A DNA stretch of 64,000 nucleotides from Amyloporia xantha (taxonomy: Eukaryota; Basidiomycota; Agaricomycetes; Polyporales; Adustoporiaceae), in the NCBI GenBank assembly GCA_036971615.1, contig JAYKKR010000051.1:116801-180800 (forward strand), given 5' to 3'. A program made the translations under genes and the position numbers. Positions 7,818-24,727 of the stretch are shown piece by piece. Under the pieces are notes generated by a model. That model did no database searches and was not told the origin of the DNA. It saw only the letters and a list, made by a program, of their open reading frames with translations. Every line of letters starts with the position of its first letter. Position 1 is the first letter of the stretch.

Positions 7818-7839
7818 TTACCGGTTCCCAAAGGACGTG
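7818..7839 (+). repeat. nad4L leader copy ahead of dpo
   Basis: The 22-nt block starting ATTACCGGTTCCCAAAGGAC is identical to the one upstream of nad4L (22394-22415, minus). A second nad4L-like block lies inside the dpo frame at 7936-7961. Confidence 0.85.
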
Positions 7840-7856
7840 TTTATTACATAAAAAAC

Positions 7857-10661
7857 ATGAAACAATTAATTATTATACTCTACTTCGCACTTCGGGCGAT
7901 TATTATCGCCCCGCGTAGCGGTCTAATAGGGTTAGTTTTAAATCGAAAAAACTTAATCCTATTTTTCATGGTCTGCGCGATTCTTGTAGCATTCACTGCT
8001 GTGGATACTAACATACTGTGCAAAAGCTCGACCTCATCCTGGTTGATGATTACTCCAATTATAAAAATAAACAAATCAGGATTCAATGAATTTATTGGTG
8101 ATATTGACACTCCAGAGATACTTAGTTTCACACCCGATTCGGGATTATCTTTAATAATCAAAGCTTTTTTCAATCGTATTATTAGCACTGCAGGCGACAG
8201 AAAATTCTTTATATTACTAAGACTACACTATGATGATGATTCAATAAGAACACTACATAAAGGACTCATAGTTAAACATGCTTCTTTAAATGAGTACATT
8301 ACTCTATGTAAAAACTTAATCTCGATTAAATCCAATGATTATACAGCAAGAGCGATAACGAAAGTAACCTTTAATTATTTCATGATTGATCTTGATCGTG
8401 AACAATATTATATTGATAAGTGGACAGAACTAGACATGCAGAATACGAAACCAATATCATTAACACCGTTTGGTAAATATAAACTTCCGTCAAATAATAA
8501 CTATTCTAGTTGGGGTGTTATAATGTCAGAAACTGATAAAGTTTCAGTGATCGCAAGTGATAATTATATTTATGTTATTACTCATCTTTCCGAAACGGAA
8601 ACGGAAATTAAAGTTTTTAAAAATAAAAAACTGATTATTACATTTACAGACGTGCTTTTATCACGGACCGATGTTGATGCCTTTTTTAAACGAGTCATTA
8701 ACTCTATGACATATTACATTCGCAATGGGGCTATACTTCTATCAATTAAAGAACTAGAAACTAAATTCCTTAAAACTCTAAAATGTAAAAACGTTCCTTC
8801 TGCTAATAAGATTATTACTTTCGATATTGAAACTCTTCTTATTGACGGTCAACATAAACCTTATCTTTATTCAATGTATGACGGCAAACGTACTTATTCT
8901 TGGTTCACTGATTCGCCTCAATCCTTATTCGATCAACTATTAAGACGTAAATATAAAAACTTTGTCTGCTATGCCCATAATCTATCTGGATTCGATATCG
9001 TATTCATTTTCAGATATCTAGCGGTCCTGCATAGTCAGGGTTATAAAATTACAATCCTTAAAAAAGATGATACCATGCTTCGCATGGAATATAAATATCG
9101 CTTCCCGAAAAGACAATATATCAATTGACATTCGTGATTCTTTTTTAATCTTACCATTTTCTCTATCTAAACTAGCATTGCAATTTAATGTAGAAACATC
9201 TAAAGACATTGAACCAGTATTAACCGGAAAAGGAGCCTGCGAACATCCAGAGTACGCCATGTCTGACTTTAAACATTATTCTAAAGACATTGAATTAGTG
9301 GAAGATTTTAATCTGTGGAAACAGAAAGTTCAGCAATATTGTGAACATGACTCGATAAGCCTACACCAGGTTTTAGTTAAATTCCGAAGCTTAGTTAAAG
9401 ATAAGTGGGGTTTAGACATAACTAAATATCCCACTACACCGTCATTAGCTTTTGCTATTTATCGTAGTTCTTACTTAAAGGATCATACTATACCTATTAC
9501 TCAAGGAGAAGTGTATGACTTTATTAAAGAAAGTTTCACCGGTGGTGCCACAGAAATGTATAAACCCGTCTCATCGTCGAGAAACATTTATTGTTATGAT
9601 GTTAACTCATTATATCCATTTGTAATGGCAAACAATAAATTCCCAGTAGGTCAAATTCTGCAGTTTGAAGGTGATCCTACTATTCTATCGCAGGATGATT
9701 ATTATTGGATTGGGGATGTAGAAGTGCAAACTAAGAAAAACTTATATTCACCTTATCTTCAAATCCACCATAATATCACGGGCGCTGCTGGTGGAATGCG
9801 TACTATAAGTCCAAATGGGGCATTCAGAATGAAAATTAACTCACCTGAATATTATAATTCTTTAAAGGATTACAATATAGTAACTTCGCGTGGATATATT
9901 TTCAGAAAAGAAGACATATTTTCGAGTTTTATAAACGATCTTTATAAAATAAGATGTTCATATCCTAAATCTGATCCGATGAACATGATCACTCGTGCAA
10001 AGCACGTTATGAATTCGTGCTATGGCCGATTCGCCATGGCACCTATTCGTTCAGTCCAAGCCTTTGTTAATAAAGAGGAATTCTTAAGATTAAGTGAAAA
10101 ATTCGAAATTTTAGAATATATCGATTTAATTGATACGTCTCCCGCGCGAGAAGGTACGGATACTTCATTATTCGTTAATTATCTTGATCCTTCTTTATTA
10201 CATAAAGAATCTAAGACATCAATTGGAATTGCATCCGCAGTCACCTCATATGCCAGAGTTCACATGTCTCAATTTAAATATCCAAGCAGTCAATATAAAT
10301 TATATTACACAGACACAGATAGTATCTATATTGATAAGCCATTAGACGACTCCTTAGTTTCTGATGTCGAATTGGGTAAATTTAAACTTGAACATGTCTT
10401 TAAAGAAGCAGTATTCCTAGGGCCTAAAATATATGCAGGTATTACCACAGATGATAAATACATCTGTAAAGTAAAAGGATTTAAGGATCCTAAAACTCGT
10501 GCTTCGCACGTTGGTGATATGAAAACCCTTTTAGCGAAGGATACCCATCCGAAGGATGATTAAGTCATCTAAAATGGTTTAAGAATTTATACTGTGCACT
10601 AAAAAGGAAGATGCGTGAGGATTACCATCTTGACACCTTGACTCCAGAAAAACTGTTTTAG
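7857..10661 (+). pseudogene. dpo: Plasmid-type family B DNA polymerase, frameshifted
   Basis: Protein-primed polymerase of linear mitochondrial plasmids. First part 7857-9128, second part open from 9067 to 10563. The first part has the exonuclease motifs FDIETL and NLSGFDIVFIF; the second has polymerase motif A (YDVNSLYPFVM), motif B (KHVMNSCYGRFAMAP) and motif C (YTDTDSIYI). Two lesions: a frameshift near 9085-9110 just after a CCATGCTTCGCATGG word, and a second near 10557-10572 at a CCATCCGAAGGATG hairpin, after which a typical C-terminal tail (KWFKNLYCAL ... TPEKLF) continues in another frame to a stop at 10659-10661. All catalytic residues survive. The N-terminus (LIGLVLNRKNLIL) resembles Nad4L. 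Arm 2 shares the first frame problem in altered form. Remnant of an integrated plasmid; sequencing indels could explain one lesion. Confidence 0.88.
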
Positions 10662-10858
10662 TGTTTGATGGGGGGGGGGGGGTATGGGCTATATACCACT
10701 TTTCGACTCTTATATCAGGTGTCCTGTCTCTGGTGTGTCGAGCTCGTCTATTGGTCCTACTCCCTTATAACTATTCATGTGCCCCGGTCCACACCCGAGT
10801 GAATAGATGATGTGCCATCCAAAGAATGTGTCTATTTTATTATTATTTTATAGCGTCA
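10662..10858. other. dpo-orf106 convergent spacer with poly-G tract
   Basis: Contains a run of 13 G at 10670-10682 (11 in arm 2) and an otherwise unstructured sequence. No gene seen. The homopolymer length difference between arms is a useful marker of assembly or replication slippage. Confidence 0.6.
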
Positions 10859-11179
10859 TTAGGAAAATAAGACTAATAAATTTAAATAGATGATTACGAA
10901 TAAGACTAAGATTATAATAAAAAAATTAATGAACAAATTGACATAGAGTATTTTTTGTCTCACCCGAATAAAAATAGCTAATTTTGGAAATCTCTCTTCC
11001 AATCCGTAATATCTTATAATTTTATCTGCAAATAATGTAGCAATAATAGTCATTAAACAATGAAGTATTAGAATAGAACCACTTAAGTGAACTATAGCTC
11101 CTATTTGTTCAAGATTTAAGTCCTTTATGCTATTAGTTATAATATCTAAGGTATTATTACCATCTATAAAATTTTTCAT
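10859..11179 (-). CDS. orf106, plasmid-type two-segment membrane protein
   Basis: Unrecognised 106-residue protein. Two hydrophobic segments (about residues 29-50 and 77-105) flank a basic loop, DKIIRYYGLEERFPKLAIF. That loop aligns with EYLIKRFDLENKYPKLAKY of orf198 and orf197, so the three are homologous: shared features are a Leu-Glu pair, an aromatic-Pro-Lys-Leu-Ala core and a following R-[VI]-R motif. It is convergent with dpo. Leader: a 60-nt A-rich stretch (AACAAAACAACAATCAAC). No copy of that leader was found in front of a core gene here; its source could be cox1 or cob outside the window. Confidence 0.7.
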   Translation of the reverse strand: MKNFIDGNNTLDIITNSIKDLNLEQIGAIVHLSGSILILHCLMTIIATLFADKIIRYYGLEERFPKLAIFIRVRQKILYVNLFINFFIIILVLFVIIYLNLLVLFS

Positions 11180-11600
11180 TGTTTTGTTTGTTGATTGTTG
11201 TTTTGTTAACGCCCTATTCTATTTTTAATCATAAAGGTGGACCCGTGCCTCATCGCTCCCATCCTGCCATCCCTGCCTCATCGTCGATGTTGCAGGGGTG
11301 AGGGATGAGTGCCCGATGGTCCACGGGTCCAAAGCAAAAGAATTATTATATTAAATTATGTAAGACTCTTTTTAATTAATAAGACGGTTGAAGCCGACTA
11401 TACCACTGTAACTAAAAAGTCGTCTATATACTTCTTTTAAATAAGTGCAATGCGACCCCAAAATTTAAAAAATCTGGTTGTGTCCTCCGAAGCCTCCTTC
11501 TCATCCATCTCAACCGGCGCTCTCAACCTTCGCCATCCCTGCAGAGCAGGGGTGAGGTGCCGGAGAGGGATGCAAGGAGGGCGTATGGGGTGGAACCATT
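11180..11600. other. Gene-free stretch orf106-orf198
   Basis: Two GC clusters (11240-11330; 11480-11585) and an AT-rich middle with two minus-strand promoter-like motifs: 11363-11380 (AAAAAGAGTC) and 11426-11443 (TTAAAAGAAGTATAT). These could serve orf106. Confidence 0.55.
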
Positions 11601-12197
11601 TTAATTAAAAAATAGTTCAATTAATTTAGGTAATATTATATGTGCATACACAAAAATTTGCGGTAGAATACCTATAAAGATCCAAACAAAACAAAGTTTT
11701 AAATAATAATTTTGTAATTTTCTTCGTATTTGTATATACTTAGCTAACTTAGGGTATTTATTTTCTAAATCGAATCGTTTAATTAAGTATTCACCATATA
11801 ACACTAAAATTATACTTACGACATAGCTTAGCACTAAACTATTTAATAATAAACCACTAAAAGCTAATAATTCCTCTTGTCTTAAGGAATCTAAGAAAGT
11901 TTGTAAGTCAAAATCAAATGAAATGATACTACTTTTGTTTATAATATTTTTTATCTCTTCTGCATAATTAATTATATGATTATAAGATATAGGCTGTGTC
12001 CATAGACAAGACATTGCCATACTATAAATACCAATGCCTGATCCAATTGACTGAATATAAAAAGCATTAAAAGCTAATGCTCCGGCATAAATAAAAATTA
12101 TAGAAAATATTCTAAGATATAATATGGATGAAATATTTTTATTGAATGAAGGTAGGGCAATTGCCACTATTAAAATTAAGATACTAAGAAAGATCAT
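11601..12197 (-). CDS. orf198, nad2 N-terminus fused to a plasmid-type membrane protein
   Basis: A chimeric 198-residue protein. Residues 1-59 are the Nad2 N-terminus with one substitution (LRIFSI for LRISSI), including its leader. After a short junction (MAMSCLWTQP) comes a module almost identical to that of orf197: NKSSIISFDFDLQTFLDSL, a hydrophobic helix (VLSYVVSIILVLYGEYLI), the basic loop KRFDLENKYPKLAKYIQIRR and a second helix. The fusion is open in both arms, so it is probably maintained. Likely inner-membrane protein of unknown function. The captured Nad2 part supplies start codon, leader and two hydrophobic helices. The plasmid module may also start at the internal Met of the junction. 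Confidence 0.8.
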   Translation of the reverse strand: MIFLSILILIVAIALPSFNKNISSILYLRIFSIIFIYAGALAFNAFYIQSIGSGIGIYSMAMSCLWTQPISYNHIINYAEEIKNIINKSSIISFDFDLQTFLDSLRQEELLAFSGLLLNSLVLSYVVSIILVLYGEYLIKRFDLENKYPKLAKYIQIRRKLQNYYLKLCFVWIFIGILPQIFVYAHIILPKLIELFFN

Positions 12198-12229
12198 TAC
12201 TCAACAAAATTAATTCTTCTTTTACCTTT
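12021..12229 (-). repeat. Captured nad2 leader plus N-terminal codons
   Basis: 209-nt copy of 3013-3221 with two base changes; it ends sharply at the junction with the orf198-specific sequence. Confidence 0.92.
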
Positions 12230-12431
12230 CGTGCCTCTCATCCCTCTCCATCCTGCATCCTGCGACCCTCATCTAGATGGTCCGAAGGATGGGTTGAGGG
12301 ACACGTTGCTAGAGAGGATGCAGGATGGGTAGGTCTTAAGGGGTAGTAACATTTATTAAACTATATTATTATTATGCCCACCCGACCCAGCTTGTAGCCA
12401 TGGTCTCAACCATGGTTAAGTAAAATAATAA
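12198..12431. repeat. orf198-orf197 spacer with GC cluster
   Basis: GC words CATCTAGATG, CATCCTTCGG and a CAACCATGGTTG palindrome near 12408-12419. No gene. Confidence 0.55.
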
Positions 12432-13025
12432 CTAAGTCGAGCATAGCACGTCTAATAGTTTAGGGTATAATATTAATATATCAATAATAAACTGTGGTAA
12501 TAAAGCAAAGAATATCCAAGCAAAGCAAAGTTTTAGGTAATAATTTTGTAATTTTCTTCGTATTTCTATAAATTTAGCAATTTTAGGGTACTTATTCTCT
12601 AAATCAAATCGTTTAATTAAGTATTCACCATATAATACTAAAATTATACTTACGACATAACTTAATACTAAACTATTAAATAATAAACTACCTAAAGCTA
12701 ATAATTCCTCTTGGCTTAAAGAATCTAAAAAAGTTTGTAAGTCAAAATCAAATGAAATGATACTACTTTTGTTTATATCATGATCATCTAATTTTGGAGA
12801 AGGATCTACGCTAACTAAAAAATTACCTTTAAATAAATTATAAAACCATTGTTTTATTGAATAAAATATGATAATATATAATATATACAAGATAGATAAT
12901 ATAAAAACAGTCGTGCATAGCACGTCTATATTATTTAATTGTTTCCCTATACCACTAACCATAATAAATACACTTAATCCACCTATCATTTTGAATATTC
13001 TTACATAAATATTTTTATATCTCAT
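12432..13025 (-). CDS. orf197, plasmid-type membrane protein
   Basis: Unrecognised 197-residue protein, paralogue of orf198. From residue 89 (INKSSIISFDFDLQTFLDSL) it matches orf198 nearly residue for residue through the helix VVSIILVLYGEYLI, basic loop RFDLENKYPKIAKFIEIRR and final helix. Its own N-terminus has two hydrophobic segments (MIGGLSVFIMVSGIG; VFILSILYILYIIIFYSI). GC hairpins of the CGTGCATAGCACG type are present in frame at about 12912-12925 and 12439-12452. Starts at MRYKNIYVRIFK; upstream lie the rps3-type and rnl-type leader copies. Function unknown, membrane location inferred. Confidence 0.75.
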   Translation of the reverse strand: MRYKNIYVRIFKMIGGLSVFIMVSGIGKQLNNIDVLCTTVFILSILYILYIIIFYSIKQWFYNLFKGNFLVSVDPSPKLDDHDINKSSIISFDFDLQTFLDSLSQEELLALGSLLFNSLVLSYVVSIILVLYGEYLIKRFDLENKYPKIAKFIEIRRKLQNYYLKLCFAWIFFALLPQFIIDILILYPKLLDVLCST

Positions 13026-13145
13026 TATTATATGATTAGGGAAGGTAGGTAAATCCCAACCAGATTTTATACCATAGAAAATTCTTTGGTTTATTGTTTT
13101 ATTATTTTTTTCATTTATTTTTTTTTGTTTTATTTTAAAATTTAT

Positions 13146-13277
13146 ATTTATATAAATTTTATGATATATATTTTTTTACTTTGCATAACATTCGAACTTA
13201 ACAATACACGTGAATAATATACATACGTTTTATTTTACGTGTTAAATATCGTGCTCTCGACGATATTTTATTGTTAT
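13146..13277 (-). repeat. rps3-type leader copy upstream of orf197
   Basis: Same block as 7406-7521, but interrupted near 13249-13264 by a small CG-rich insertion (TCGTGCTCTCGACGA). It lies about 120 nt upstream of orf197 on its strand. Confidence 0.75.
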
Positions 13278-13355
13278 TGTTTTTTTATGAAATTGTCATG
13301 TAGCGTTCCCTCAACCATGGTTGCAGCATGCTGCGACCATGGAGGATCACAATTC

Positions 13356-13445
13356 AAAAGGTACGCCGTCATTTTGCGACCGGCAACCCATCCTTCGGCA
13401 TCCGAAGGATGGGTTGAGTCGATTAAACTTCGACTGCTTATAGAT
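13356..13445 (-). repeat. Copy of an rnl domain II helix with GC-cluster loop
   Basis: AAAAGGTACGCCGTCATT ... TTCGACTGCTTATAGA matches rnl at 27924-27972. The terminal loop, an AT hairpin in rnl, is replaced by a CATCCTTCGG-type GC cluster. Confidence 0.75.
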
Positions 13446-13521
13446 TGACATCCACCTTCAAATGAAGATGGCTAGGCGTAAGCCGCTATGTATAACGCAA
13501 CAGGCGAGCGTGGATGTCAAT
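13444..13521. ncRNA. Structured hairpin element of unknown function
   Basis: A 12-bp perfect stem (ATTGACATCCAC / GTGGATGTCAAT) encloses about 54 nt with an inner GC-rich hairpin around GGCTAGGCGTAAGCC. It abuts the rnl helix copy and the rnl leader copy. It could be a small RNA, a processing site or a replication element; nothing identifies it further. Confidence 0.35.
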
Positions 13522-13573
13522 CCTTTGAAATTCATTTGATGTTATATCTATATTGTCATCGTTCCTTTTATTT
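13522..13573 (-). repeat. rnl leader copy upstream of orf197
   Basis: Minus-strand sequence AATAAAAGGAACGATGACAA and the following ATAGATATAACATCAAATG parallel the rnl leader at 28391-28443 with a few changes. Confidence 0.75.
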
Positions 13574-13748
13574 TGCTGTTTCTACCCCGATGCTCCCAAA
13601 ATGGTGTTTTTTCTAAAATAGGGGTTTTGATTGATGTGTGTTTTTCCTGTTGAGCTCAATTCCTAATAAGGGTCATAAAATCTATTCGCTTACCTGGATT
13701 GCTTATCCCTGCTTGCAGGCGTATGCATCCTGGTGAATGATGATAGAG

Positions 13749-13840
13749 AAGGTACGCCGTCATTTTGCGACCGGCCATCCTTCGGATGGCACCATCTAGA
13801 TGAGAGCAGGAGGGTCGATTAAACTTCGACTGCTTATAGA
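13749..13840 (-). repeat. Second copy of the rnl domain II helix
   Basis: Same flanks as at 13356-13445 (AAGGTACGCCGTCATT ... TTCGACTGCTTATAGA) with yet another GC-cluster loop including CATCTAGATG. Confidence 0.7.
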
Positions 13841-13955
13841 CTCATCCCTGCAACATCCTCTCATCCCTCAACCCTCATCCTGTGTCCCATCCTTCGGATG
13901 GGACACAGGATGAATGTGATTTAATGTTCAAGAAAATAGGGTAAATATTATATAA

Positions 13956-14058
13956 TAAAAGAATAGCATCTCGGTCTCTTTTTTATGAGACCAGCCATTT
14001 AAGCAGCCAAAACGAGTTGCGCACAGCTCGCTTCGTAATAACTTTGGTGATATATAAC
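13956..14058 (+). promoter_or_regulatory. cox3-type leader ahead of orf327
   Basis: Begins with AAAAGAATAGCATC, then a GGTCTC/GAGACC hairpin and CGAGTTGCGCACAGCTCG. The same module stands upstream of cox3 (23546-23724) and orf120 (24544-24727). Confidence 0.75.
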
Positions 14059-14147
14059 ATACATGCTCTGCAGTCATCCTCATCCTTCGGATGCCGAAGG
14101 ATGGGATGCAGAAGGCAACACGTATATTTACACATGTATACTAAATA

Positions 14148-15131
14148 ATGATAATTATTCAACTTTTTAATGATACCATACTTACTTGTATGTTAATAAT
14201 TTTAAATCCTATATTAATAATAACGTCTTCTTTGGTCTCCCAACCAATGTTTATTAAAACCTTTATAATAGCCTTTTTAATAGAAAGCGATTTGCTCGGG
14301 AAAAATATTAAAATGTACTGTAATTTTATAATAAATCATAAGTGGTTTCGCATCTTAGTTTATTTAATATTATTAGTTTCATTCATATTAGGCCTACTGC
14401 ATCCATCAATGCTTAACGATCATATTTTATATTTAAATGAACCTAACAATACTGACGTGCCAAACACGGATACTCCTGCTGCATCATCAACATCAACCAC
14501 GGTTACAAATGATAGCACGCATAGTGCAACAAGTTCTACTACTGTTAATAATATTTTAAATATAAATGTTCCAAATTCTGCAAAGGATACCGCTTTAACT
14601 GCTATGGGCATGAAAATAGGTCTGGAAGCTGCTAAAAGCCTACCCGCAGCTGGTAAATTAGTGGCTGTTGGTGTAGGTGGTGGCGTAGCTCTTAGTTTAT
14701 CTAAAATCTCCGATATTATTGATAAAGGTAAAGGTAAAGGTGGTGGTAAACCAGGTGAAGGTTCAAACTATGTTATGGAACCTGCAGCTGTAGAAGACTC
14801 AATCGTGCAAAGCACGTCCGATAATCAATTAATATTACAGCATTATCCCTTTAATCTCTTAAGTGAGCTATTTACAATAAATCAATTAGAGTTAGCATGT
14901 TTAATTTTAATTTTAAATTGTTTCATATCAACCTTAATTAGACATTCAGGATTTAATTATAGTAAATACATTCCTAATAACAAATTTAAACCTAAAATTG
15001 AGTATCTAATTAATAGATACATCGATATATGGTATAAATCTAATATTTTTGTATTTAGTGTTTCATGGGTCTGCTTATTTGTAATAAATTTTACAATTAA
15101 ATATTCACTTCATCTAATATTATCGTCATAA
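14148..15131 (+). CDS. orf327, plasmid-type membrane protein with Gly/Ala-rich centre
   Basis: Unrecognised 327-residue protein, intact in both arms. Layout: hydrophobic N-terminus (residues 1-50), a second helix (WFRILVYLILLVSFILGLL), a Thr/Ser/Asn-rich linker (residues 105-140), an Ala/Gly segment (LEAAKSLPAAGKLVAVGVGG), a Gly-Lys stretch (DKGKGKGGGKPGEG), then a C-terminal two-helix unit (LELACLILILNCFISTLI and FVFSVSWVCLFVINF) around a basic loop. A GC hairpin is in frame at about 14803-14816. The Gly/Ala amphipathic segment plus membrane anchors recalls proteins on fungal mitochondrial linear plasmids; the role is unknown. Start MIIIQLFND follows the cox3-type leader. Confidence 0.78.
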   Translation: MIIIQLFNDTILTCMLIILNPILIITSSLVSQPMFIKTFIIAFLIESDLLGKNIKMYCNFIINHKWFRILVYLILLVSFILGLLHPSMLNDHILYLNEPNNTDVPNTDTPAASSTSTTVTNDSTHSATSSTTVNNILNINVPNSAKDTALTAMGMKIGLEAAKSLPAAGKLVAVGVGGGVALSLSKISDIIDKGKGKGGGKPGEGSNYVMEPAAVEDSIVQSTSDNQLILQHYPFNLLSELFTINQLELACLILILNCFISTLIRHSGFNYSKYIPNNKFKPKIEYLINRYIDIWYKSNIFVFSVSWVCLFVINFTIKYSLHLILSS

Positions 15132-15959: not shown

Positions 15960-15982
15960 AAACTATACTAAAAAGATACGTA

Positions 15983-16066
15983 TGAGCAGTAAAGGAATCG
16001 AACCTTTTACAGTTATACACCAATTCTTTTACAGAGAACCACCATTACCAATCGGATCACCTGCCC
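15983..16066 (-). tRNA. trnY: tRNA-Tyr (GUA)
   Basis: Acceptor GGGCAGG/ACTGCTC (one mismatch), loop CTGTAAA giving GTA, extended variable arm as usual for fungal mitochondrial tRNA-Tyr. Confidence 0.9.
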
Positions 16067-16555: not shown

Positions 16556-16620
16556 TATAAGGGGCCATCCGGCATCCTGCGACCCTCAACCATGGTTGCC
16601 TGATGAGGGATGAGAGGATG

Positions 16621-18069
16621 TTACGCAGAATATAATAAAGTAGAAACCGGTAAGTGAATAGTATATAATATAACATTAGGTAAAATACCTAAGACTATAG
16701 TAGGTATAAGTAAAGTGATTAAAAGGTTAAATTCTTGTCTAGTTATATCTATATAAGGTTTAAGGTGAGGAGAATATACCCCATAAGAAATTCTATTATA
16801 TAAATAAATAGAATAACATGCAGATAAAACAATACCAGTAGCACCTAGAGCAGATATAATTGGACTTTTTTCCCATATACCAATTAAAGATAATTGTTCA
16901 CCTAGGAAATTTAAACTTAAAGGTATACCGGTATTACATAAAGTAAATATAAAGAATAAGACAGTAAATACAGGCATATAAGTAACTAAACCTCTAATAT
17001 ATTGAATAATTCTAGTACCAGTTCTTTCATATATAACACCACCCACACAAATAAATAAGGCAGGTGATACAAAACCATGACCTAAAGAAAGTAGAATAGC
17101 TCCTTCTATCCCTTGTATTGTATTAGAAAATAGACCTAATATAACTACACTCATGTGTGCAATACTTGAATAAGCAATAAGAGATTTAGTATCTTGTTGT
17201 ATTACAGTTGCTAATGATGAATAAATTAAAGTTATAATTGCAATAGTTTGTATTAATGGACCAAAATAATTAGAAGCATCAGGTAAAAAGTTAATCAATA
17301 CTCTAATATAACCATAAGTAGCAAATTTTAGAATAGTTCCAGCTAGTAGAATTGAACCAGCTAATGGACTATCAGCATGAGCTCTATAAAGCCAACCAGT
17401 TAAAGGCCATAGCGGAGTTTTTACTGCAAAAGCTAAGAAGAATGCTAACCATAATATTTTTTGAGTATCTAAGCTTATATCAGATAAAGAGATTAATTGA
17501 AAGTCTGTAGAACCTACATTACTATAAATATGCAGAATAGCTAAAAGCATAAATAAAGATCCAGCTAAAGTATATAAAAAAAATAATAAAGCTGATCTAA
17601 TTCTATTTTCTCCTGAACCGTAGACTACTATAATTATAAATAATACGGGTAATACACTTTCGAAAAAAATATAGAAAAGAAATAAATCTAAAACTACAAA
17701 AACTGCTATTTGTAGTGTTTCTAGGATTAAAAAGGAGATAAGGAAATATTTTATATTTTTATATATATTTTTATAATTAGAAAGTATTGCTATTGGTGTT
17801 ATAAATGTTGTTAGTAAGACATAGTATAGTGAAATCCCATCTATACCTATATTAAAGTGACAAAAACTTAATTTATTGAATTCATATATAAATTGATAAT
17901 CACTAGTACTTGAATCAAATTCAACCCATAATAAGATAGAGATTAGTAAATTAATTAGAGACGTTGAAAGAGCTATATTTTTCATTTTATTTTCATTTTT
18001 TATTGTGTCTTGTATAGGTAATATTAATAAAGAACCTATAATTGGAACTATTAGAAGTAATTGAATCAT
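16621..18069 (-). CDS. nad4: NADH dehydrogenase subunit 4
   Basis: Proton-pumping antiporter-like subunit of complex I. The 482-residue protein has the family core VKTPLWPLTGWLYRAHADSP near residue 215, the SLIAYSSIAHMSVVILG helix near residue 298 and the glycine-rich GHGFVSPALFICVGG. Length matches fungal Nad4. Start MIQLLLIVPIIGS follows a 117-nt leader that is duplicated ahead of orf340. A GC cluster separates its stop from trnA. The nearest promoter-like motif is at 18256-18270. Confidence 0.97.
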   Translation of the reverse strand: MIQLLLIVPIIGSLLILPIQDTIKNENKMKNIALSTSLINLLISILLWVEFDSSTSDYQFIYEFNKLSFCHFNIGIDGISLYYVLLTTFITPIAILSNYKNIYKNIKYFLISFLILETLQIAVFVVLDLFLFYIFFESVLPVLFIIIVVYGSGENRIRSALLFFLYTLAGSLFMLLAILHIYSNVGSTDFQLISLSDISLDTQKILWLAFFLAFAVKTPLWPLTGWLYRAHADSPLAGSILLAGTILKFATYGYIRVLINFLPDASNYFGPLIQTIAIITLIYSSLATVIQQDTKSLIAYSSIAHMSVVILGLFSNTIQGIEGAILLSLGHGFVSPALFICVGGVIYERTGTRIIQYIRGLVTYMPVFTVLFFIFTLCNTGIPLSLNFLGEQLSLIGIWEKSPIISALGATGIVLSACYSIYLYNRISYGVYSPHLKPYIDITRQEFNLLITLLIPTIVLGILPNVILYTIHLPVSTLLYSA

Positions 18070-18071
18070 TT

Positions 18072-18188
18072 TAAATTAACGTAGACGGGTTGTTGTTTTA
18101 TTAAATACGGCGAAGCCGAATATTGATGATAGGATTACGATTGTAATTCAAATTTTTATATTAAAAAATTGAAAAAAATTAATCAGAT
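18072..18188 (-). repeat. nad4 5' leader, duplicated upstream of orf340
   Basis: 117 nt ending one base before the nad4 start context; 19712-19828 is the same with a single visible base change. Confidence 0.92.
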
Positions 18189-18255
18189 TGGTAGATCGGT
18201 CATATGACCAGAGAGGCTTGACTGTATATTCTACAAAATAATTTAGCTTAGTAAA

Positions 18256-18270
18256 CGATTCTTTTATAGC
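18256..18270 (-). promoter_or_regulatory. Promoter-like motif upstream of nad4
   Basis: Minus-strand GCTATAAAAGAATCG, about 70 nt upstream of the shared nad4 leader. Confidence 0.45.
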
Positions 18271-18689
18271 GTTCGGAGGACGGTTTTTTTATTTAAAATA
18301 AAGCGTGCGAAGCACGTAAGTAAATATAAAGAAGAGTCGACCGGCAACCGGGAACCCTCGCGCGCCGGTGCATCCCTCACTCAATCAATGAGTGCCGGGG
18401 CATCCGGCAACCCATCCCATCCTTCGGATGCCGAAGGATGGGATGAGAGGGATGAGAGAGGGTTGAGGGTGCCGGAGAGAGAGCGAGAGGCTAAGGATAA
18501 GCCTTTTATCTAATAAAGGAGTAAGGTCGTGTAAGCCCATCGATCCTTTAAATCCTTTTTTAGATATTTTAATTCCCCTTTGCGACCGGCACTCCCTCGA
18601 CCCTCCTGCTCTCATCTAAATAATGCCATGCTTCGCATGAGGGTCGAGATAGGGTTGAGAGGGATGCGAGGGGTGATTGGTATTATTCT

Positions 18690-19712
18690 TTATTTCTTAG
18701 GGAAGTATGTATGCAAATCAATTGGTAACTCTTCTAATGGTAGAGGATGGGTGATAAGATAATGTAAACCTACAAAAAGCTCTATTAGGCCAAACACTAT
18801 TATTAATGGTAATAGAAAAAGACTAATTTTACTTAGGGTAATTTGGTAGTTAATAAAAAACGCAATAAATTTATTATTAGTATTAAATTTGTTTATAATG
18901 AATTCTTTATTATGTAGCATTATATTTATAAGCGTATATAAACTAAATAAAATGATTAAACTAACTACTATTAATAACATAAGTGAGTAGATAAATATTT
19001 GTTGACCTATTAAATCATCCAAATATCCGTGTACGTGTACTGGTTTAAAGAATTGAATAAAGAAATTGAAAATACCATCTAAAGATAAGTCTTGAAAGTA
19101 GTAACCGTCGCCTGTTCTAGTAGCCTCATCGCTAAGTCTGTCAAATACTGGGTTTAATCGATTATCATGTATAACAGCAGATACAATAGCTGGCCATGAA
19201 CCAGTTATTTTGTACTCCATCATTGACGTGCTCCGCACGAATCTGTTAAAGCCATTTGGATTTACAGCATGAAACCATACAGCAGAAGGTCGTGCTTTGC
19301 ACGCTAACGAAGTTAAAGCAGCTATTGCTTTAATTTTGGGTGTTCCAGGTACTAATCTATATACACCTATAGCACCTCCTATAATACCCCCTCCTGCAAC
19401 CATGGTTGAGAAGGAGGGAGGAGTACCAGAAGGCCACCATCTAACAGGGTCCTGATTATTATTACTATCATTGACATATAACCATTCAGGTTTAATATTA
19501 GAATGAAGAAATAATAGCTGGATTAAACTAAGAATAAACATGATACCAGTAAAAATTAAGAGGATTAATATTAATATTTCAATTATAGTACTAGTCTGAC
19601 ATAGGTTTTTAGCTTTTAACCCTAAAAGACCTAATTTAGAAGTATACATAATTACTAATGATAATACTGAGGTATATAATAAGAGATTTAATATCATTAA
19701 GTTGATTTCCAT
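18690..19712 (-). CDS. orf340, plasmid-type membrane protein with nad4 leader
   Basis: Unrecognised 340-residue protein, intact here but frameshifted in arm 2. N-terminal hydrophobic segments (residues 4-25 and 40-70) are followed by a glycine-rich piece (MVAGGGIIGGAIGVYRLVPG), a soluble-looking central part (WFHAVNPNGFNRFVRS; SWPAIVSAVIHDNRLNPVF) and a C-terminal two-helix unit (YSLMLLIVVSLIILFSLYTL and ISLFLLPLIIVFGLIELF) around a basic Asn-rich loop. That C-terminal unit resembles the build of the other plasmid-type ORFs. Two GC hairpins lie in frame at about 19226 and 19290, and CAACCATGGTTG at about 19397. Start codon lies exactly at the edge of the captured leader. Function unknown. Confidence 0.75.
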   Translation of the reverse strand: MEINLMILNLLLYTSVLSLVIMYTSKLGLLGLKAKNLCQTSTIIEILILILLIFTGIMFILSLIQLLFLHSNIKPEWLYVNDSNNNQDPVRWWPSGTPPSFSTMVAGGGIIGGAIGVYRLVPGTPKIKAIAALTSLACKARPSAVWFHAVNPNGFNRFVRSTSMMEYKITGSWPAIVSAVIHDNRLNPVFDRLSDEATRTGDGYYFQDLSLDGIFNFFIQFFKPVHVHGYLDDLIGQQIFIYSLMLLIVVSLIILFSLYTLINIMLHNKEFIINKFNTNNKFIAFFINYQITLSKISLFLLPLIIVFGLIELFVGLHYLITHPLPLEELPIDLHTYFPKK

Positions 19713-19828
19713 AAATTAACGTAGACGGGTTGTTGTTTTATTAAATACGGCGAAGCCGAATATTGGTGATAGGATTACGATTGTAATTCAAATTTTTATA
19801 TTAAAAAATTGAAAAAAATTAATCAGAT
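19712..19828 (-). repeat. Captured nad4 leader ahead of orf340
   Basis: Copy of 18072-18188 with one base change (TTGGTGAT for TTGATGAT). It begins at the orf340 start codon, so the ORF has taken over the leader precisely. Confidence 0.92.
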
Positions 19829-20130
19829 ATCTCCATCTCTCGACCCTCTCGACCATGGTCGAGAGGGTTGAGGGCAAGATATCTACAAAAATAGTTTTTA
19901 TTGGTAAACTATTCATTCTTTTATACGTAGGGGGTTATTATATCATCGTCATCGTCTTTAACATCCTTCCCATCTTAAAAAAAGATGTAGATAGGCTGTG
20001 TCCTGCATCCCATCCTTCGGACCATCTAGATGAGGGTCGCCGGGGCACTCATCCCTCATCCTGCGACCATGGTCGAGGGATGCAGGATGGGAGAGAGGGA
20101 CAAGAGAGATGTAAGATGTAAAAGTTTGTC
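19829..20130. repeat. orf340-nad5 spacer
   Basis: GC clusters at 19830-19880 and 20000-20110 with CTCGACCATGGTCGAG; a promoter-like motif lies between them. Confidence 0.55.
19913..19929 (-). promoter_or_regulatory. Promoter-like motif upstream of orf340
   Basis: Minus-strand CGTATAAAAGAATGAAT, the same core as the nad4 motif but in different flanking sequence. Confidence 0.4.
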
Positions 20131-22113
20131 CTATTCTGAAGAAAGAACTAATACTAAAGCTGCCATATAAATAATAACTAATCTAATTTCACTAAATAAA
20201 GAAGTATCAATTAAAATAGGAGCAAAAACTAAGAATAATAAAGAAAGTAAACCTAAAGTGATATACAGAGAATAAGTAGTAATTACTCCAGTATCTAATT
20301 TACCAATATTAATACCAGTATTACTTACTGTATTACTTAAGCCGTATGGTCCAACTAGTTCAATTACCCCTCTATCTAAAACTTTAGAAATGGTGTAACC
20401 TAGTTGTAAACCTCCTGCAATTATATAATAATTATAAACTACATCAAATAGATATTTACCATTTAAAAATGTATAAATTTTTCTACCTAGTGAAGTATCT
20501 GTAAGTTCTATTACAAAATTAGGAGTATAATGGTATAAGAATATAGCCAGACTAGCTCCTAATAAAGATAAAATAGCAGGTAAAAGTTTAATAAAAATAG
20601 GTAAACTAAATTCAGCTTCAATAATAGAAATATTATTAGGATGAATAAATAAAGAGTTAGCAAAGAAATCTGTACCTACTCCTACAAACAAATCAGAAAA
20701 TACAAAACCAAAGAAAATACTAAATAAAGCTAGTATAAACAATGGAATTATTACTGCTAAATTTGCTTCATGAGAATTTAAGTAAGCATTTCGTGAGCCA
20801 TTTGGTACAGTTAAAAATACCAATGATATTAATCTAAATGAATAAAAGGCAGTTAAACCTGCAGTAATACTTCCTAATATAAAGGCGAAAGTACCACTAA
20901 AGCTATATTGTGCATAAGCTAATTCTATTATTAAATCTTTACTATAGAATCCAGTTAGCCACGGTGTGGCTAGTAATGATAATGAACCGACTAACATACA
21001 AGTATAAGTAAATGGTAAGAATTTTATTAAACCTCCAAATCTTCTAACATCTTGTTGATCGGCAAAACTATGAATTACTGCACCAGCACCTAAGAATAAT
21101 AATGCTTTAAAGAAAGCGTGGTTAACTACATGCATTAAAGCAACATTATATTGACTTAGACCTACAGCCATAACCATATATCCTAATTGGCTTATTGTGG
21201 AGAACGCAATTATTCGTTTTAAATCATTTTGTACTAGACCACAAGTTGCTGCGAAAAAGGCTGTAGAAGCACCTACTAATGTTATTACTAATAGTGCTGT
21301 ACTACTATACTCTAATAATGGTGAGGATCTTACTAATAAGTATAATCCAGCTGTTACTAGTGTAGCCGCATGAATTAAAGCTGAGACAGGTGTAGGACCT
21401 TCCATAGAACCAGGAAGCCAAGAGTGTAATGGTATTTGAGCTGATTTAGCCATAGCTCCACTAAGAAGTAATAAACCTATTATAGTAATAGCTGTTTCAT
21501 TCATAAAAGGTGCTAAACTAAATACAGTCGCATAGTCTATACTTCCAAATAAAGCAAATACTGCAAAGAATCCTATACTTAGACCCATATCTCCTACTCT
21601 ATTCATAGTTAAAGCTAATATTGCTGCTTTATTTGCTTGTAATCTAGTAAACCAGAAATTAATTAGTAAGTATGAGACTACTCCTATACCTTCCCAACCT
21701 ACAAACATTACAAAATAATTAGCACCTGATACTAATAATAACATAAAGAAAGTGAATAAAGATAGATATGAGAAAAATCTTTGATTATGTGGATCTTCAG
21801 ACATATAATCTGTAGAAAATATATGAATTAAAGAAGAAATATATAGGACAGGTATAAACATTGCGACAGTTAATTGATCAAATAAAAATTCCCAAGATAT
21901 AGAAAGAAACTCTGAATCAATCCAAGTATTTAAATGAATTGAGAGAGGTGAGGCACAGATACCTACTTCATAAAAAGCTAGACTCGCTAAAATTGAAGAT
22001 AAAATTAGGCAGGTACATGTAATAATATGTGAGCCACTTACTCCTATTTTTCGTCCCATTAAACCTGAGACAATTGAACCTAATAAAGGTAATATTAATA
22101 TAGAAAGATACAT
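20131..22113 (-). CDS. nad5: NADH dehydrogenase subunit 5
   Basis: Largest membrane subunit of complex I, a proton-pumping antiporter-like protein with a long lateral helix. 660 residues with the signature PLHSWLPGSMEGPTPVSA near residue 227, the lysine-bearing LKRIIAFSTISQLGYM near 305 and a long C-terminal extension. Its start overlaps the nad4L stop by one base (TAATG), the usual fungal arrangement, which implies translational coupling. Identical in length in arm 2. The 18 nt around its stop (GAATAGGACAAACTTTTA) also occur inside nad4L, a possible recombination scar. Confidence 0.98.
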   Translation of the reverse strand: MYLSILILPLLGSIVSGLMGRKIGVSGSHIITCTCLILSSILASLAFYEVGICASPLSIHLNTWIDSEFLSISWEFLFDQLTVAMFIPVLYISSLIHIFSTDYMSEDPHNQRFFSYLSLFTFFMLLLVSGANYFVMFVGWEGIGVVSYLLINFWFTRLQANKAAILALTMNRVGDMGLSIGFFAVFALFGSIDYATVFSLAPFMNETAITIIGLLLLSGAMAKSAQIPLHSWLPGSMEGPTPVSALIHAATLVTAGLYLLVRSSPLLEYSSTALLVITLVGASTAFFAATCGLVQNDLKRIIAFSTISQLGYMVMAVGLSQYNVALMHVVNHAFFKALLFLGAGAVIHSFADQQDVRRFGGLIKFLPFTYTCMLVGSLSLLATPWLTGFYSKDLIIELAYAQYSFSGTFAFILGSITAGLTAFYSFRLISLVFLTVPNGSRNAYLNSHEANLAVIIPLFILALFSIFFGFVFSDLFVGVGTDFFANSLFIHPNNISIIEAEFSLPIFIKLLPAILSLLGASLAIFLYHYTPNFVIELTDTSLGRKIYTFLNGKYLFDVVYNYYIIAGGLQLGYTISKVLDRGVIELVGPYGLSNTVSNTGINIGKLDTGVITTYSLYITLGLLSLLFLVFAPILIDTSLFSEIRLVIIYMAALVLVLSSE

Positions 22114-22379
22114 TAGTTTCTTAATGAAATGTTTCCTCTTAAACGATAAAAAGCTACAAGAATACTTAAACCTATTACTGATTCTGCTCCAGCTATTGAA
22201 ATTATAAAGATACTAAAAGTTTGTCCTATTCCATCATCAAAAGTGAATGAACTAATTAAAACTAATAGTGTTACAGCTAATAGCATTATTTCTATCGCAA
22301 TAATCATTAGGATTATATTTTTTCGATTTAAAATAAATCCTAAAATACCTATTAAAAATAAGAATAATGACAGATTCAT
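22113..22379 (-). CDS. nad4L: NADH dehydrogenase subunit 4L
   Basis: Small three-helix membrane subunit of complex I (88 residues): MNLSLFLFLIGILGFILNRK, then the helix LMIIAIEIMLLAVTLLVLI with the conserved Glu, and SIAGAESVIGLSILVAFYRL. Length and motifs are standard. Overlaps nad5 by one base. Its leader (22394-22415) and a stretch of its early codons (22308-22333) have counterparts at the start of dpo. It probably shares a transcript with cox3 upstream and nad5 downstream. Confidence 0.97.
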   Translation of the reverse strand: MNLSLFLFLIGILGFILNRKNIILMIIAIEIMLLAVTLLVLISSFTFDDGIGQTFSIFIISIAGAESVIGLSILVAFYRLRGNISLRN

Positions 22380-22393
22380 AGTTATGTATTTGT

Positions 22394-22415
22394 ACGTCCT
22401 TTGGGAACCGGTAAT
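22394..22415 (-). repeat. nad4L leader block shared with dpo
   Basis: Minus strand ATTACCGGTTCCCAAAGGAC and two more bases, identical to 7818-7839 upstream of dpo; 15 nt before the nad4L start. Confidence 0.85.
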
Positions 22416-22716
22416 AAATGTTGGCTCCGTGCCCCCCCCCTCTCTCTCCCTGCCATCCTTAGGATGGGCTAGAGGGATGGTCCATCTAGATGAGGCAGGG
22501 GGGGAGGGCCGGAGAGAGATAGAGAAGAAAAGGGGGTTATGTATAACTCCGCCTGCATCCCTCTCAACCTGCGACCCATCCGAAGGATGCCGGTCGAGGT
22601 TGGCCCATCATGCGAAGCATGGCCTCATCGTCGATGGTGCAGGACCGACCTGCATCCTGCATCCCTCGACCATGGTCGCAGGATGAGGGATGAGGCTCGA
22701 GAGAGGCGAGGACGGA
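22416..22716. repeat. GC cluster between nad4L and cox3
   Basis: About 300 bp of modular palindromes (CATCTAGATG, CATCGTCGATG, CATGCGAAGCATG, CGACCATGGTCG) plus a C-run at 22431-22440. Open frames here are compositional. Confidence 0.7.
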
Positions 22717-23526
22717 CTAGTTTCCACCCCAGTAATATACAGCAATAAATAAGAATAACCATACAACATCAACAAAATGCCAATAAAGTATAGCAGATTC
22801 AAATCCTTGGTGATGTGAGGTTGTAAGATGATAATTAACTAGTCGGAAGAATGCTACTGCAATGAAAATTGTTCCAATAATTACGTGAAATCCATGTAAA
22901 CCAGTTGACGCATAAAATGCGGATCCGTATACTGAATCTGCGAATGTGAATGCTGCTTCTGAATATTCGTAATATTGTAAGCAAGTGAAAATTACAGCTA
23001 ATACAATTGTAAGAAGTGTACCTATTATTGCACCTTCTCTTGATCCTTGGATTAAGGCATGGTGTCCATATGTTACAAATGCTCCACTACTTAATAATAA
23101 AATTGTATTAAGTAATGGTATAGCAAAAGGATCTAGTGCTGTTATACCTTGTGGTGGCCATACTCCTCCAATTTCAATTGCTGGACTTAAACTAGAATGG
23201 AAAAAAGCCCAGAATACACTTAAGAAAGCAAAAACTTCACTAACAATGAATAAAACTACACCTATTGTTAATCCTTTTTGTACTTGAGTTGTATGACATC
23301 CTAAGTAAGTACCTTCTGTTATTACATCTCTAAACCATAGTGTCATACCATAAGCTGTAAGTACAAAACCTAAACTTAAGATAGTTCCACCATAAGGATA
23401 TCCGTGCATATACATTACTCCACCTATAGCCATATTTAATAGAGTAAAACTAACTAATAAAGGCCATGGACTTATTTCTACCAAATGAAAGGGAAAATTT
23501 TGAATTTGGTTTCTATTTATAATCAT
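22717..23526 (-). CDS. cox3: Cytochrome c oxidase subunit 3
   Basis: Core membrane subunit of complex IV. From MIINRNQIQNFPFHLVEISP it gives 269 residues with the conserved WPLLVSFTLLNMAIG, RDVITEGTYLGCHTTQVQKG and a C-terminal HFVDVVWLFLFIAVYYWGG. The frame is open further upstream to a Met in the leader repeat (MRDAKDADERTARK), but that peptide is encoded by the GC word region and also precedes orf120, so it is not the start. Leader 23546-23724 begins with the promoter-like motif. Intron-free. Confidence 0.97.
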   Translation of the reverse strand: MIINRNQIQNFPFHLVEISPWPLLVSFTLLNMAIGGVMYMHGYPYGGTILSLGFVLTAYGMTLWFRDVITEGTYLGCHTTQVQKGLTIGVVLFIVSEVFAFLSVFWAFFHSSLSPAIEIGGVWPPQGITALDPFAIPLLNTILLLSSGAFVTYGHHALIQGSREGAIIGTLLTIVLAVIFTCLQYYEYSEAAFTFADSVYGSAFYASTGLHGFHVIIGTIFIAVAFFRLVNYHLTTSHHQGFESAILYWHFVDVVWLFLFIAVYYWGGN

Positions 23527-23545
23527 TTTTTGTATTCGTATTTTT

Positions 23546-23724
23546 CGTGCTGTGCGCTCATCCGCATCCTTTGCATCCCTCATCTAGATGAGGGATGCGC
23601 TGCACGTGAGAGCATGGGCACGTTATGTATCACCAAAGTTATTACGAAGCGAGCTGTGCGCAACTCGTTTTGGCTGCTTAAATGGTGGCTCTCATAAAAA
23701 AGAGACCGTGATGCTATTCTTTTA
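23546..23724 (-). repeat. cox3 leader module, shared with orf120 and orf327
   Basis: About 180 nt: promoter-like motif, GGTCTC/GAGACC hairpin, GAGCTGTGCGCAACTC hairpin, ATCACCAAAGTTATTACG, then a GC palindrome (CATCCCTCATCTAGATGAGG). Copies: 24544-24727 complete, 13956-14058 distal part only. Confidence 0.9.
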
Positions 23725-23726
23725 GT
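23713..23726 (-). promoter_or_regulatory. Promoter-like motif upstream of cox3
   Basis: Minus-strand ACTAAAAGAATAGC, at the upstream end of the shared leader module; likely start of a cox3-nad4L-nad5 transcript. Confidence 0.5.
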
Positions 23727-23974
23727 CTTATTCTGTTATTACGTTGGCTCTCCTCCTTATCTAATCTTTTTTTTCCTTATTAATACACTTCTCTCATCCG
23801 TGCTTCGCACGCCTCTCTAGCAACGTGGCCCCATCCCATCCTTCGGATGCCGAAGGATGGGATGCAGACTGGTTGAGGCCGGCCGGAGAGCATCCCTCAT
23901 CCAAAGGATGGCTTCGCACGAGCATGAGCACGTTGCTAGAGAGGGATGCAGTAGGGGTGGACGATCGGATTATG

Positions 23975-24105
23975 ACGATACGACTTCGTCGATAGTGAAT
24001 ACTTAATTGTAAAGTTTATTACAAATAAACAGAGCCATGAAACAGTAAATACAAAAAGATAATTGATTATCGGACGTGCTTTGCACGATTGAGTCTTCTA
24101 CACTA
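23975..24105 (-). pseudogene. Internally deleted 3' fragment of orf327
   Basis: Minus strand joins two separate parts of orf327: the segment with the in-frame CGTGCAAAGCACG hairpin (like 14790-14829) and the last-helix segment (like 15048-15115). It lies just downstream of orf120, which uses the same leader as orf327. So orf120 seems to have replaced the body of an orf327-like gene. Confidence 0.75.
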
Positions 24106-24173
24106 CTCGACCCTCAACCCTCATCTAGATGGTCCGAAGGATGGGTTGAGGGTCGAGGGAGGAGGAGCACGAA

Positions 24174-24536
24174 TTAACTAAAATGAATTATAATTTTTAT
24201 ACTAGCCTTTAACATATATCCTATGCTACTAAATAGAAATATAAGTTCTAATATAATAAAACTTACTCTAGTTCTATTATAAAATTTAACTAATTTAGTC
24301 ATATACGCGCGAAGCACGCTATTAGATATTTTATCAATAATTTTATTATTATTTACTATATATAATGATAGTAGATATATGGAGATATTTATTACACTAA
24401 ATAAAATAATACAATTAAAAATTAAACAACCTATAGCCAAAAAAACTATAGGCGGCAGAGCCGTATCATTTATATTTACATTTAGTCCAATAAAATTTAA
24501 AAAGTCATTAATATTATTTTGCATGAGAAATTTCAT
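24174..24536 (-). CDS. orf120, plasmid-type membrane protein with cox3 leader
   Basis: Unrecognised protein of about 120 residues starting MKFLMQNNINDFLNFIG. A hydrophobic segment (IVFLAIGCLIFNCIILFSVINI) is followed by a basic loop (NNNKIIDKISNSVLRAYMTK, then FYNRTR) and a second hydrophobic segment. A GC hairpin of the GCGCGAAGCACGC type is in frame near 24306-24319. Arm 2 lacks one codon (PIVLAIG for PIVFLAIG), from a 3-nt difference. The leader is the cox3 module. Location in the inner membrane is inferred; function unknown. Confidence 0.7.
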   Translation of the reverse strand: MKFLMQNNINDFLNFIGLNVNINDTALPPIVFLAIGCLIFNCIILFSVINISIYLLSLYIVNNNKIIDKISNSVLRAYMTKLVKFYNRTRVSFIILELIFLFSSIGYMLKASIKIIIHFS

Positions 24537-24543
24537 TATTTTC

Positions 24544-24727
24544 CGTGCTGTGCGCTCATCCGCATCCTTTGCATCCCTCATCTAGATGAGGGATGCGCTG
24601 CAGGTGAGAGCATGGGCACGTTATGTATCACCAAAGTTATTACGAAGCGAGCTGTGCGCAACTCGTTTTGGCTGCTTAAATGGTTGGTCATGGGCTCAAT
24701 GAGCAGACCGTGATGCTATTCTTTTAT
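24544..24727 (-). repeat. Captured cox3 leader ahead of orf120
   Basis: Differs from 23546-23724 chiefly in the hairpin before the motif, where GGTCTG...CAATGAGCAGACC-type sequence replaces the T-rich loop. Confidence 0.9.

Follow-up and report, generated by a model that had tools for sequence, protein, structure and literature searches.

Mitochondrial unit and copied gene fronts

The stretch of DNA analysed here, called the window throughout, comprises 64,000 nucleotides (nt) of contig JAYKKR010000051.1 of the polypore Amyloporia xantha (C47:116801-180800 in our numbering), from an assembly of 46.8 Mb in 60 contigs. It is mitochondrial DNA (mtDNA), and our subject is a set of plasmid-type open reading frames (ORFs) in it that are preceded by copies of the 5' ends of host mitochondrial genes. 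The contig is noisy, with many small indels, and repeats a single mtDNA unit as a fold-back concatemer. This unit, U, was taken as C47:69562-114333 (44,772 bases, a 44.8 kb mtDNA); its part from 2.47 to 38.3 kb corresponds to the window from 1 to ~35.7 kb, while the window from 36 to 64 kb runs through that DNA again in inverted orientation. Features tallied on the raw window are counted twice, and the fold-back re-read at 36-64 kb is not independent evidence. Parts absent from the window, including cox1 and cob, were recovered from U. Coordinates are those of the window unless U is named.

The host set consisted of 16 genes (14 proteins, rnl and rns, with the rnl 5' end positioned by Rfam); atp8 was not found in it. 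Eleven non-core ORFs of about 100 amino acids (aa) or more and with AT-rich coding sequence were taken; short GC-rich ORFs were left out and orf126 was given an upstream start. Self-comparison of U returned 461 repeat pairs, 21 of which have a GC content below 0.45. Once paralogous ORFs, self-palindromes and a few short matches had been set aside, these low-GC pairs match host-gene 5' ends with those of non-core ORFs, the exceptions being a remnant of orf327 and a nad2 piece inside orf251. A host-gene 5' end stands in front of eight of the 11 non-core ORFs, the donors being nad2, nad4L, nad4, cox3 (twice), rps3 (twice) and cob. In all eight strong blocks the duplicated part is the 5' end of a core gene, never its middle or 3' end, and the copies range from 99% identity (nad4/orf340) to nearly worn away (nad4L/dpo). 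An earlier sequence-only reading of this DNA had assigned donor leaders to five of the seven plasmid-type ORFs of the window and to dpo, and the block alignments bear it out.

The best preserved leader is that of nad4 (18072..18188, minus strand; candidate promoter 18258-18266). Its copy (19712..19828, minus; candidate promoter 19915-19923; 116/117 identical, 99.1%) fronts orf340 (18690..19712, minus), an ORF flanked by two nad4 leaders; the block is a mosaic in which these 117 nt (99%) are joined by diverged sequence closer to the motif treated below. The cox3 motif (23716-23724) and leader (23539..23724, minus) recur in front of orf135 (motif 24718-24726, block 24537..24726, minus; 190 aligned nt, 92%), and orf135 (24174..24536, minus) is flanked by two cox3 leaders. 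The gap between orf135 and the cox3 leader holds C-terminal pieces of a second orf327 (23970..24102, minus; 43 nt at 100% and 91 nt at 86% to orf327), and orf327 itself (14148..15131, plus) is fronted by a further copy of the cox3 motif and leader (13956..14069, plus; 116 aligned nt, 92%, to 23609-23724). The rps3 leader (7375..7507, minus; candidate promoter TAAAAGAAT at 7644-7652) is copied in front of orf197 (13124..13248, minus; 134 aligned nt, 89%). The latter ORF (12432..13115, minus) has 227 aa from an upstream ATG, as in record P0001, and 197 aa from 13025; upstream of its rps3 leader the rnl 5' end is repeated together with a promoter-like motif (window 13522..13573 = U 15975-16026, minus; 52 nt, 92% to 28391-28442). 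From nad2, a leader of 32 nt and the first 59 codons (3013..3221, plus) reappear at 12021..12229 (minus) as the front of the fusion orf198 (11601..12197, minus), with 175/177 identical positions in the coding part and 98% protein identity over 59 aa. The nad4L leader (22394..22420, minus) is copied at 7812..7838 (plus; 26/27) in front of dpo (7857..10563, plus), a plasmid-type B DNA polymerase present as two frames in the assembly (7857-9170 and 9067-10563), which also contains a nad4L coding piece (7927-7961 against 22308-22342; 35 nt, 86%). Beyond the window, orf126 has a copy of the cob leader (122 nt, 95%).

Read on the minus strand, three arrays of the form leader-ORF(s)-leader-host gene are seen, at nad4 (containing orf340), cox3 (orf135 and the orf327 remnant) and rps3 (orf197-orf198-orf106-dpo, dpo being on the opposite strand). 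Five of the eight recipients, namely orf198, orf327, orf126, orf183 and dpo, do not stand before their own donor.

Register of the copies against chance

We compared 250 nt upstream and 100 nt downstream of the start of each of the 11 non-core ORFs with the same regions of the 16 host genes, and considered a match to be in register when its 3' offsets differed by no more than 15 nt, the matched stretch had a GC content below 0.52 and the E-value was at most 1e-6. Eight pairs were in register, with E-values from 7e-8 to 2e-77. Giving positions relative to the A of the ATG, with the ORF before the host gene, they are orf198-nad2 (-73..99 and -85..99), orf197-rps3 (-135..-11 and -135..-3), orf183-rps3 (-181..-3 and -186..-5), orf327-cox3 (-192..-79 and -198..-83), orf135-cox3 (-190..-1 and -198..-13), orf340-nad4 (-116..0 and -119..-3), orf126-cob (-163..-42 and -160..-40) and dpo-nad4L (-45..-19 and -41..-15). 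In the orf340, orf135, orf197 and orf183 pairs the blocks end 0-13 nt before the ATG, in donor and recipient alike; in the remaining pairs their ends fall elsewhere.

Among the other ATGs, which served as a null, 1/1,677 reached 1e-6 in register, against 8/11 for the non-core ORFs, and this single ATG sits in the rnl 5'-end copy ~430 nt upstream of orf197. Host leaders compared with each other gave 0/120 in-register pairs at E <= 1e-4, with one, cox1-rps3, at 0.002. Leader matches are thus commoner beside plasmid-type ORFs than elsewhere, and it was on their being no commoner that the sequence-only reading would have had to be given up. A promoter element shared by all genes, considered as the source of the matches, was rejected, host leaders being unlike each other; GC-rich palindromes were set aside as a source, with only matches of GC below 0.45 (self-comparison) or below 0.52 (register test) counted.

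At an E-value of 1e-3, 32/1,677 other ATGs pass, and therefore the weak match between the leader of orf106 (11215-11235) and that of cob (21 nt, E 1e-4) is unconvincing taken alone. It had been predicted that the two ORFs left without a donor, orf106 and orf186, would match cox1 or cob outside the window. A cob leader was indeed found, clearly in front of orf126 and weakly for orf106, but neither is convincing for cox1; orf186, which we take to be orf173 although the lengths disagree, gave no leader match.

Promoter-like motif at the 5' boundary

A TAAAAGAA-like sequence, a candidate promoter, lies 0-5 nt inside the start of the copy in six donor-recipient pairs, as had been suggested for several of the blocks: identity ends 0, 0, 2, 1, 3 and 5 nt upstream of TAAAAGA/TAAAAGG. 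The cox3 (two recipients), nad4, rps3 (orf183) and rnl blocks start 0-3 nt before TAAAAGAAT, which in the rnl copy reads TAAAAGGAA, and the nad2 block starts 5 nt before TAAAAGAAG. In the 30 nt upstream of the motif 8, 9, 9, 12, 15 and 18 (nad2) positions are identical, as compared with 16-30 in the 30 nt from the motif on. In U, TAAAAGAAT occurs 10 times versus ~1.9 expected (order-2 Markov model, 30 runs), and at eight of the ten sites a gene or ORF on the same strand starts 33-439 nt downstream. By position and count TAAAAGAAT is a candidate promoter.

When the 150 nt further upstream were aligned, none of 300 shuffles scored as high as the actual sequences of the two cox3 pairs and of nad2-orf198. 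The matching pieces there are GC-rich elements (GC 0.57-0.59), located at other offsets for cox3 and nearly in register for nad2.

Each of the three cox3-type leaders (24537-24726, 23539-23724 and 13956-14069) is predicted to form a small hairpin immediately behind the motif, with differing letters; this is a hint, from three leaders without a shuffle control, that an RNA structure may be under constraint.

Short GC-rich palindromes of the CATCCTTCGGATG, CGACCATGGTCG and CATCTAGATG types are abundant in this mtDNA (window 13874-13913, 22440-22479, 37162-37201 and many more). They are found in spacers; by eye they also occur inside genes and ORFs, the products of which (orf251, nad3, dpo) they seem to lengthen, and orf126 is apparently broken up by them.

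In-frame fusions

The sequence-only reading had spoken of leaders only, and here it needs correction, as codons were captured too and some products are host-ORF fusion proteins: nad2-orf198 and nad4L-dpo are fused in frame. The nad2 piece of orf198 ends directly before an in-frame ATG (MAMSCLW...), and the junction looks as if a nad2 front had been placed ahead of a pre-existing gene. In dpo, residues 22-59 resemble residues 11-46 of nad4L (E 6e-5), and the N-terminus is ~62-64 residues longer than in six near-full-length relatives (P0121, P0122, P0124, P0126-P0128), which would begin at dpo residues 62-65. The N-termini of dpo relatives vary, P0159 aligning from its own residue 27 to dpo 52; an unbroken relative in the database is P0117, of 862 aa. 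Outside the window, orf251 contains an in-frame nad2 piece (42 nt, 90%) and is probably an older nad2 fusion. A tRNA directly before orf251, an impression gained by eye, was dropped, as ARAGORN finds none there. Because host codons are carried along, copying from host to ORF is demonstrated for nad2 and nad4L, and for nad4 in a relative.

Nature of the non-core ORFs

The plasmid-type label is firm for dpo, which matches Pfam DNA_pol_B_2 (PF03175, E 9e-64) and has fungal relatives; named database relatives of dpo and of the membrane ORFs are from fungi (for example Taiwanofungus, Ganoderma, Fomitopsis and Porodaedalea). A C-terminal membrane-type hairpin is common to orf106 (10859..11179, minus), orf183, orf197 and orf198, which we call family 1. 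The ratio of non-synonymous to synonymous substitution (dN/dS) between orf197 and orf198 is 0.26 over 110 codons, and therefore these two are probably selected as proteins. Some membrane ORFs adjoin dpo or a short dpo-like piece, and one relative, P0085, joins a dpo piece to a family-1 body. The membrane ORFs are expected to be inner-membrane proteins of plasmid origin. Sequence searches of Pfam and PDB returned no convincing match for them, and structure models of two families are all-helical and poor (predicted template modelling score, pTM, 0.44 and 0.34).

Viral contigs contained no relatives of dpo, family 1 or the cox3 leader; the plasmid collection, searched with dpo, gave just three distant Bacillus DNA polymerases, and the phage collection, searched with a family-1 protein, gave no match. 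Clear terminal inverted repeats around the plasmid genes were not isolated in a repeat scan dominated by the fold-back, no search dedicated to them having been made. Among the listed ORFs of the 44.8 kb unit, not every one of which was scanned against a library, inspection by eye revealed no reverse transcriptase gene.

The ORF orf173 (55-576) has no captured leader. A 30-nt piece that is 93% like dpo (U 44120-44149 against U 11266-11295) lies downstream of orf183, outside the window, and is perhaps a dpo remnant. The family-1 relatives P0077 (Trametes coccinea) and P0078 (Lenzites betulinus) are labelled LAGLIDADG endonuclease, which looks like misannotation.

Recurrence in relatives

Relatives were compared at the protein level. 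The family-1 search gave 116 proteins, own copies included, and a second search, with five further ORFs aligned, gave 51, of which 49 are closest to orf340 and 2 to orf251. Together with 120 listed of the 554 dpo relatives they form a set of 287 homologues, against which the first 100 residues of host proteins were used as queries (15 queries: 14 proteins, with cox1 in two pieces). N-terminal host fronts were found seven times for nad2 and once for nad4. Those of nad2 are on 5/116 family-1 proteins (P0002, P0003, P0036, P0096 and P0114) and on 2/51 proteins of the orf340 search (P0264 and P0269, the latter from Ganoderma calidophilum); that of nad4 is on 1/51 of the same search, P0239 of Taiwanofungus camphoratus (22 residues at 95%). 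Reversed queries gave no match among the 287 homologues, and middle-part queries, from which three short ones dropped out, gave one weak match (cox3). The 23 weak matches of C-terminal queries (22 nad4, 1 cox1) align with the family-1 membrane hairpin and are not fronts. Homology between the family-1 C-terminus and the last helices of nad4 (22/287, best E 3e-5) was not accepted, and the likeness may be convergence.

On a family-1 tree of 118 rows (orf198 among them) and 116 columns, with support from the Shimodaira-Hasegawa-like approximate likelihood ratio test (SH-aLRT) only, the nad2 label requires five changes, four of them forced by supported branches. The nad2 junctions also differ, falling at nad2 residues 59, about 64, 72 and 92, which supports separate gains; these are the simplest reading of the nad2 fusions in family 1, and a single old fusion lost many times is a less simple alternative. 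The nad2 fusion of orf340 type adds another case beyond family 1. In P0248 an orf135-type front is found on an orf251-type body, whereas orf251 here has the nad2-like piece instead; judging by the joins in P0248 and P0085, fronts are exchanged among ORFs too.

Interpretation

From these data we propose that plasmid-type ORFs have repeatedly been prefixed with duplicated host 5' ends which would give them usable expression signals and for this reason would be retained, a reading to which we assign a probability of about 0.68. The unit added would consist of a promoter-like motif and the 5' leader, in some cases with the first codons, and its junction would fall at the ORF start or upstream of it. 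Such a prefix would provide the ORF with a working mitochondrial promoter and with a 5' untranslated region (5'UTR) recognised by the host's gene-specific translation factors, and prefixed copies would be kept owing to this expression. Copying could be transcript-templated (cDNA, or a template switch from RNA started at the promoter) or could occur by recombination into a leader, and the second route would leave leader-ORF-leader-gene arrays as at nad4, cox3 and rps3. Repeated acquisition, as put forward in the sequence-only reading, is supported here and, at the protein level, in other fungi; domestication and the use of the copies as promoters we infer.

A more specific version is tentative: capture would be templated by the primary transcript, so that the unit runs from transcription start to near the start codon, is copied to DNA, becomes attached in front of plasmid ORFs and persists owing to recruitment, by each leader, of the nuclear-encoded translation activator of its own gene. 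If so, mitochondria of Agaricomycetes would possess a permanent route, open to repeated use, for bringing foreign ORFs to expression, and fronts would be swapped between ORFs and host genes over time.

The leaders might instead be scars without any role in expression, left by single crossovers at a shared short leader or by tandem duplications that enclosed an ORF. The three arrays suit this, as does the duplication of nad4 around an integrated plasmid in Agrocybe aegerita (cited in PMC4019555). However, the five recipients away from their donors need dispersal, and the six copies starting at the motif and the in-frame fusions of relatives would be left unexplained; we therefore consider such a by-product of integration unlikely. 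Less probable again is that small mtDNA circles, each combining a promoter and a 5' end with a GC-rich palindrome, spread the leaders, with the plasmid ORFs passive. GC-rich palindromes are abundant and adjoin several blocks, the rnl 5'-end copy with its motif lies upstream of orf197, and there is the Neurospora precedent described in the available passages of PMC10234125. Yet leaders are not broadly scattered before ATGs: off the ORF starts there is one copy among 1,677 ATGs, leader copies away from ATGs having been sought in the 21 low-GC pairs only. That the leaders originally belonged to plasmid ORFs and were donated to cox3, nad4, rps3 and cob is quite improbable; non-coding blocks alone carry no directional sign, but codons of nad2, nad4L and nad4 (Taiwanofungus, P0239) ride with the block and are missing from most of the ORFs' relatives. 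An assembly artefact, which a noisy fold-back concatemer might suggest, is hardly credible, since 4 to 6 full copies per locus agree (6, 5 and 4 copies, 99-100%), although perhaps from one molecule, donors and recipients differ by substitutions, and other records show the same kinds of fusion. No nuclear mtDNA copy preserving the state before insertion was present among the matches scored, all of which fall in C47.

Several points weigh against our proposal of captured and retained fronts. Three of the eight recipients stand beside their donor and could be explained by plain tandem duplication, and orf173 and orf251 have no in-register captured leader among the 16 host genes compared. Several of the ten TAAAAGAAT sites are copies themselves, the motif was named after the blocks had been inspected, and the nad4L and cob blocks are without it. 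The 5' boundary of nad2-orf198 is the least sure of the six, because the adjoining upstream GC-rich element also matches at a nearly equal offset. The start codons of cox3, orf135, rps3, orf197 and orf126 were chosen by us among candidates. For cox3, rps3 and cob the direction from host to ORF is one that we infer, and the plasmid-type label of the membrane ORFs, based on association and literature with no free plasmid here, is less than firm. Host fronts are missing from all 120 dpo relatives listed (of 554); as to the tree, its columns are few, 48/500 label shuffles gave as low a number of changes, and these may include losses.

How foreign or new ORFs gain expression in organelles is an open question, and one small mtDNA shows many instances of copied fronts at different stages, while among relatives nad2 fusions are spread over several branches in two ORF families. 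If the prefixes are functional, the orphan mitochondrial ORFs of mushrooms would be tied to host expression signals, making mitonuclear effects testable.

Comparison with known systems

In plant cytoplasmic male sterility (CMS) many chimeric ORFs sit under copied host 5' regions. Like the CMS ORFs treated in the available part of PMC11312923, which are mitochondrial ORFs joined from host-gene parts, orf198 and dpo are such chimeras. Unlike them, the present cases are in fungal mtDNA, the downstream ORFs are plasmid-type and no phenotype is known. In the Mauriceville and Varkud retroplasmids, template switching joins mitochondrial RNA sequences to plasmid sequence; here, with no reverse transcriptase gene recognised by eye, templating by transcripts is only proposed.

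Among fungal systems, plasmid-like mtDNA derivatives of Neurospora comprise a promoter, the rnl 5' end and a GC palindrome (Hausner et al. 2006, cited after PMC10234125). They resemble our case in the copied unit, a promoter with a gene 5' end, and in the GC palindromes, but they are separate tandem-repeat elements, whereas here the copies are fixed ORF prefixes. In Agrocybe aegerita nad4 is reported to be duplicated on both sides of an integrated plasmid (Ferandon et al. 2008, cited in PMC4019555); host sequence, nad4 included, is likewise duplicated on both sides of plasmid-derived DNA here, although the copies there are inverted gene copies and ours are direct leader copies. Truncated gene copies in Armillaria are mentioned in the part of PMC6506933 at hand, and the passages shown of PMC7536210 do not mention the nad4 fusion. 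For Heterobasidion, the accessible passages of PMC4201751 report a partial nad2 in H. irregulare and link non-conserved ORFs to plasmids, and those of PMC10512249 propose a non-conserved mitochondrial ORF with promoter/5'UTR variation as a mitonuclear partner.

The closest system is that of PMC10234125. The sequence-only reading knew of no described system of this form, yet that paper, in the passages seen, reported in 2023 the 5' ends of nad2, cox3, atp8 and two ORFs upstream of cox2 and of intergenic ORFs in Heterobasidion, and its authors proposed a role in expression and a possible cDNA origin for these partial 5' ends. As with PA_nad2, PA_cox3 and PA_atp8 there, core-gene 5' ends (nad2, cox3) are found here upstream of intergenic ORFs, nearly all of them transmembrane; the copy stands directly upstream of the intergenic ORF, in register in 8/11. 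Unlike the Heterobasidion case as those passages present it, 8-9 of 11 ORFs are concerned here and the donors further include nad4, nad4L, rps3, cob and rnl. Register and a promoter-like boundary were measured, and there are in-frame fusion proteins and leader-ORF-leader-gene arrays, the frame of PA_nad2 being unstated in the same passages. We found no account of in-frame fusions or of the promoter boundary in the open-licence literature. The outline of the phenomenon has been known since 2023; it is extended here by the measured register, fusion proteins, a promoter-like boundary and occurrence in several genera.

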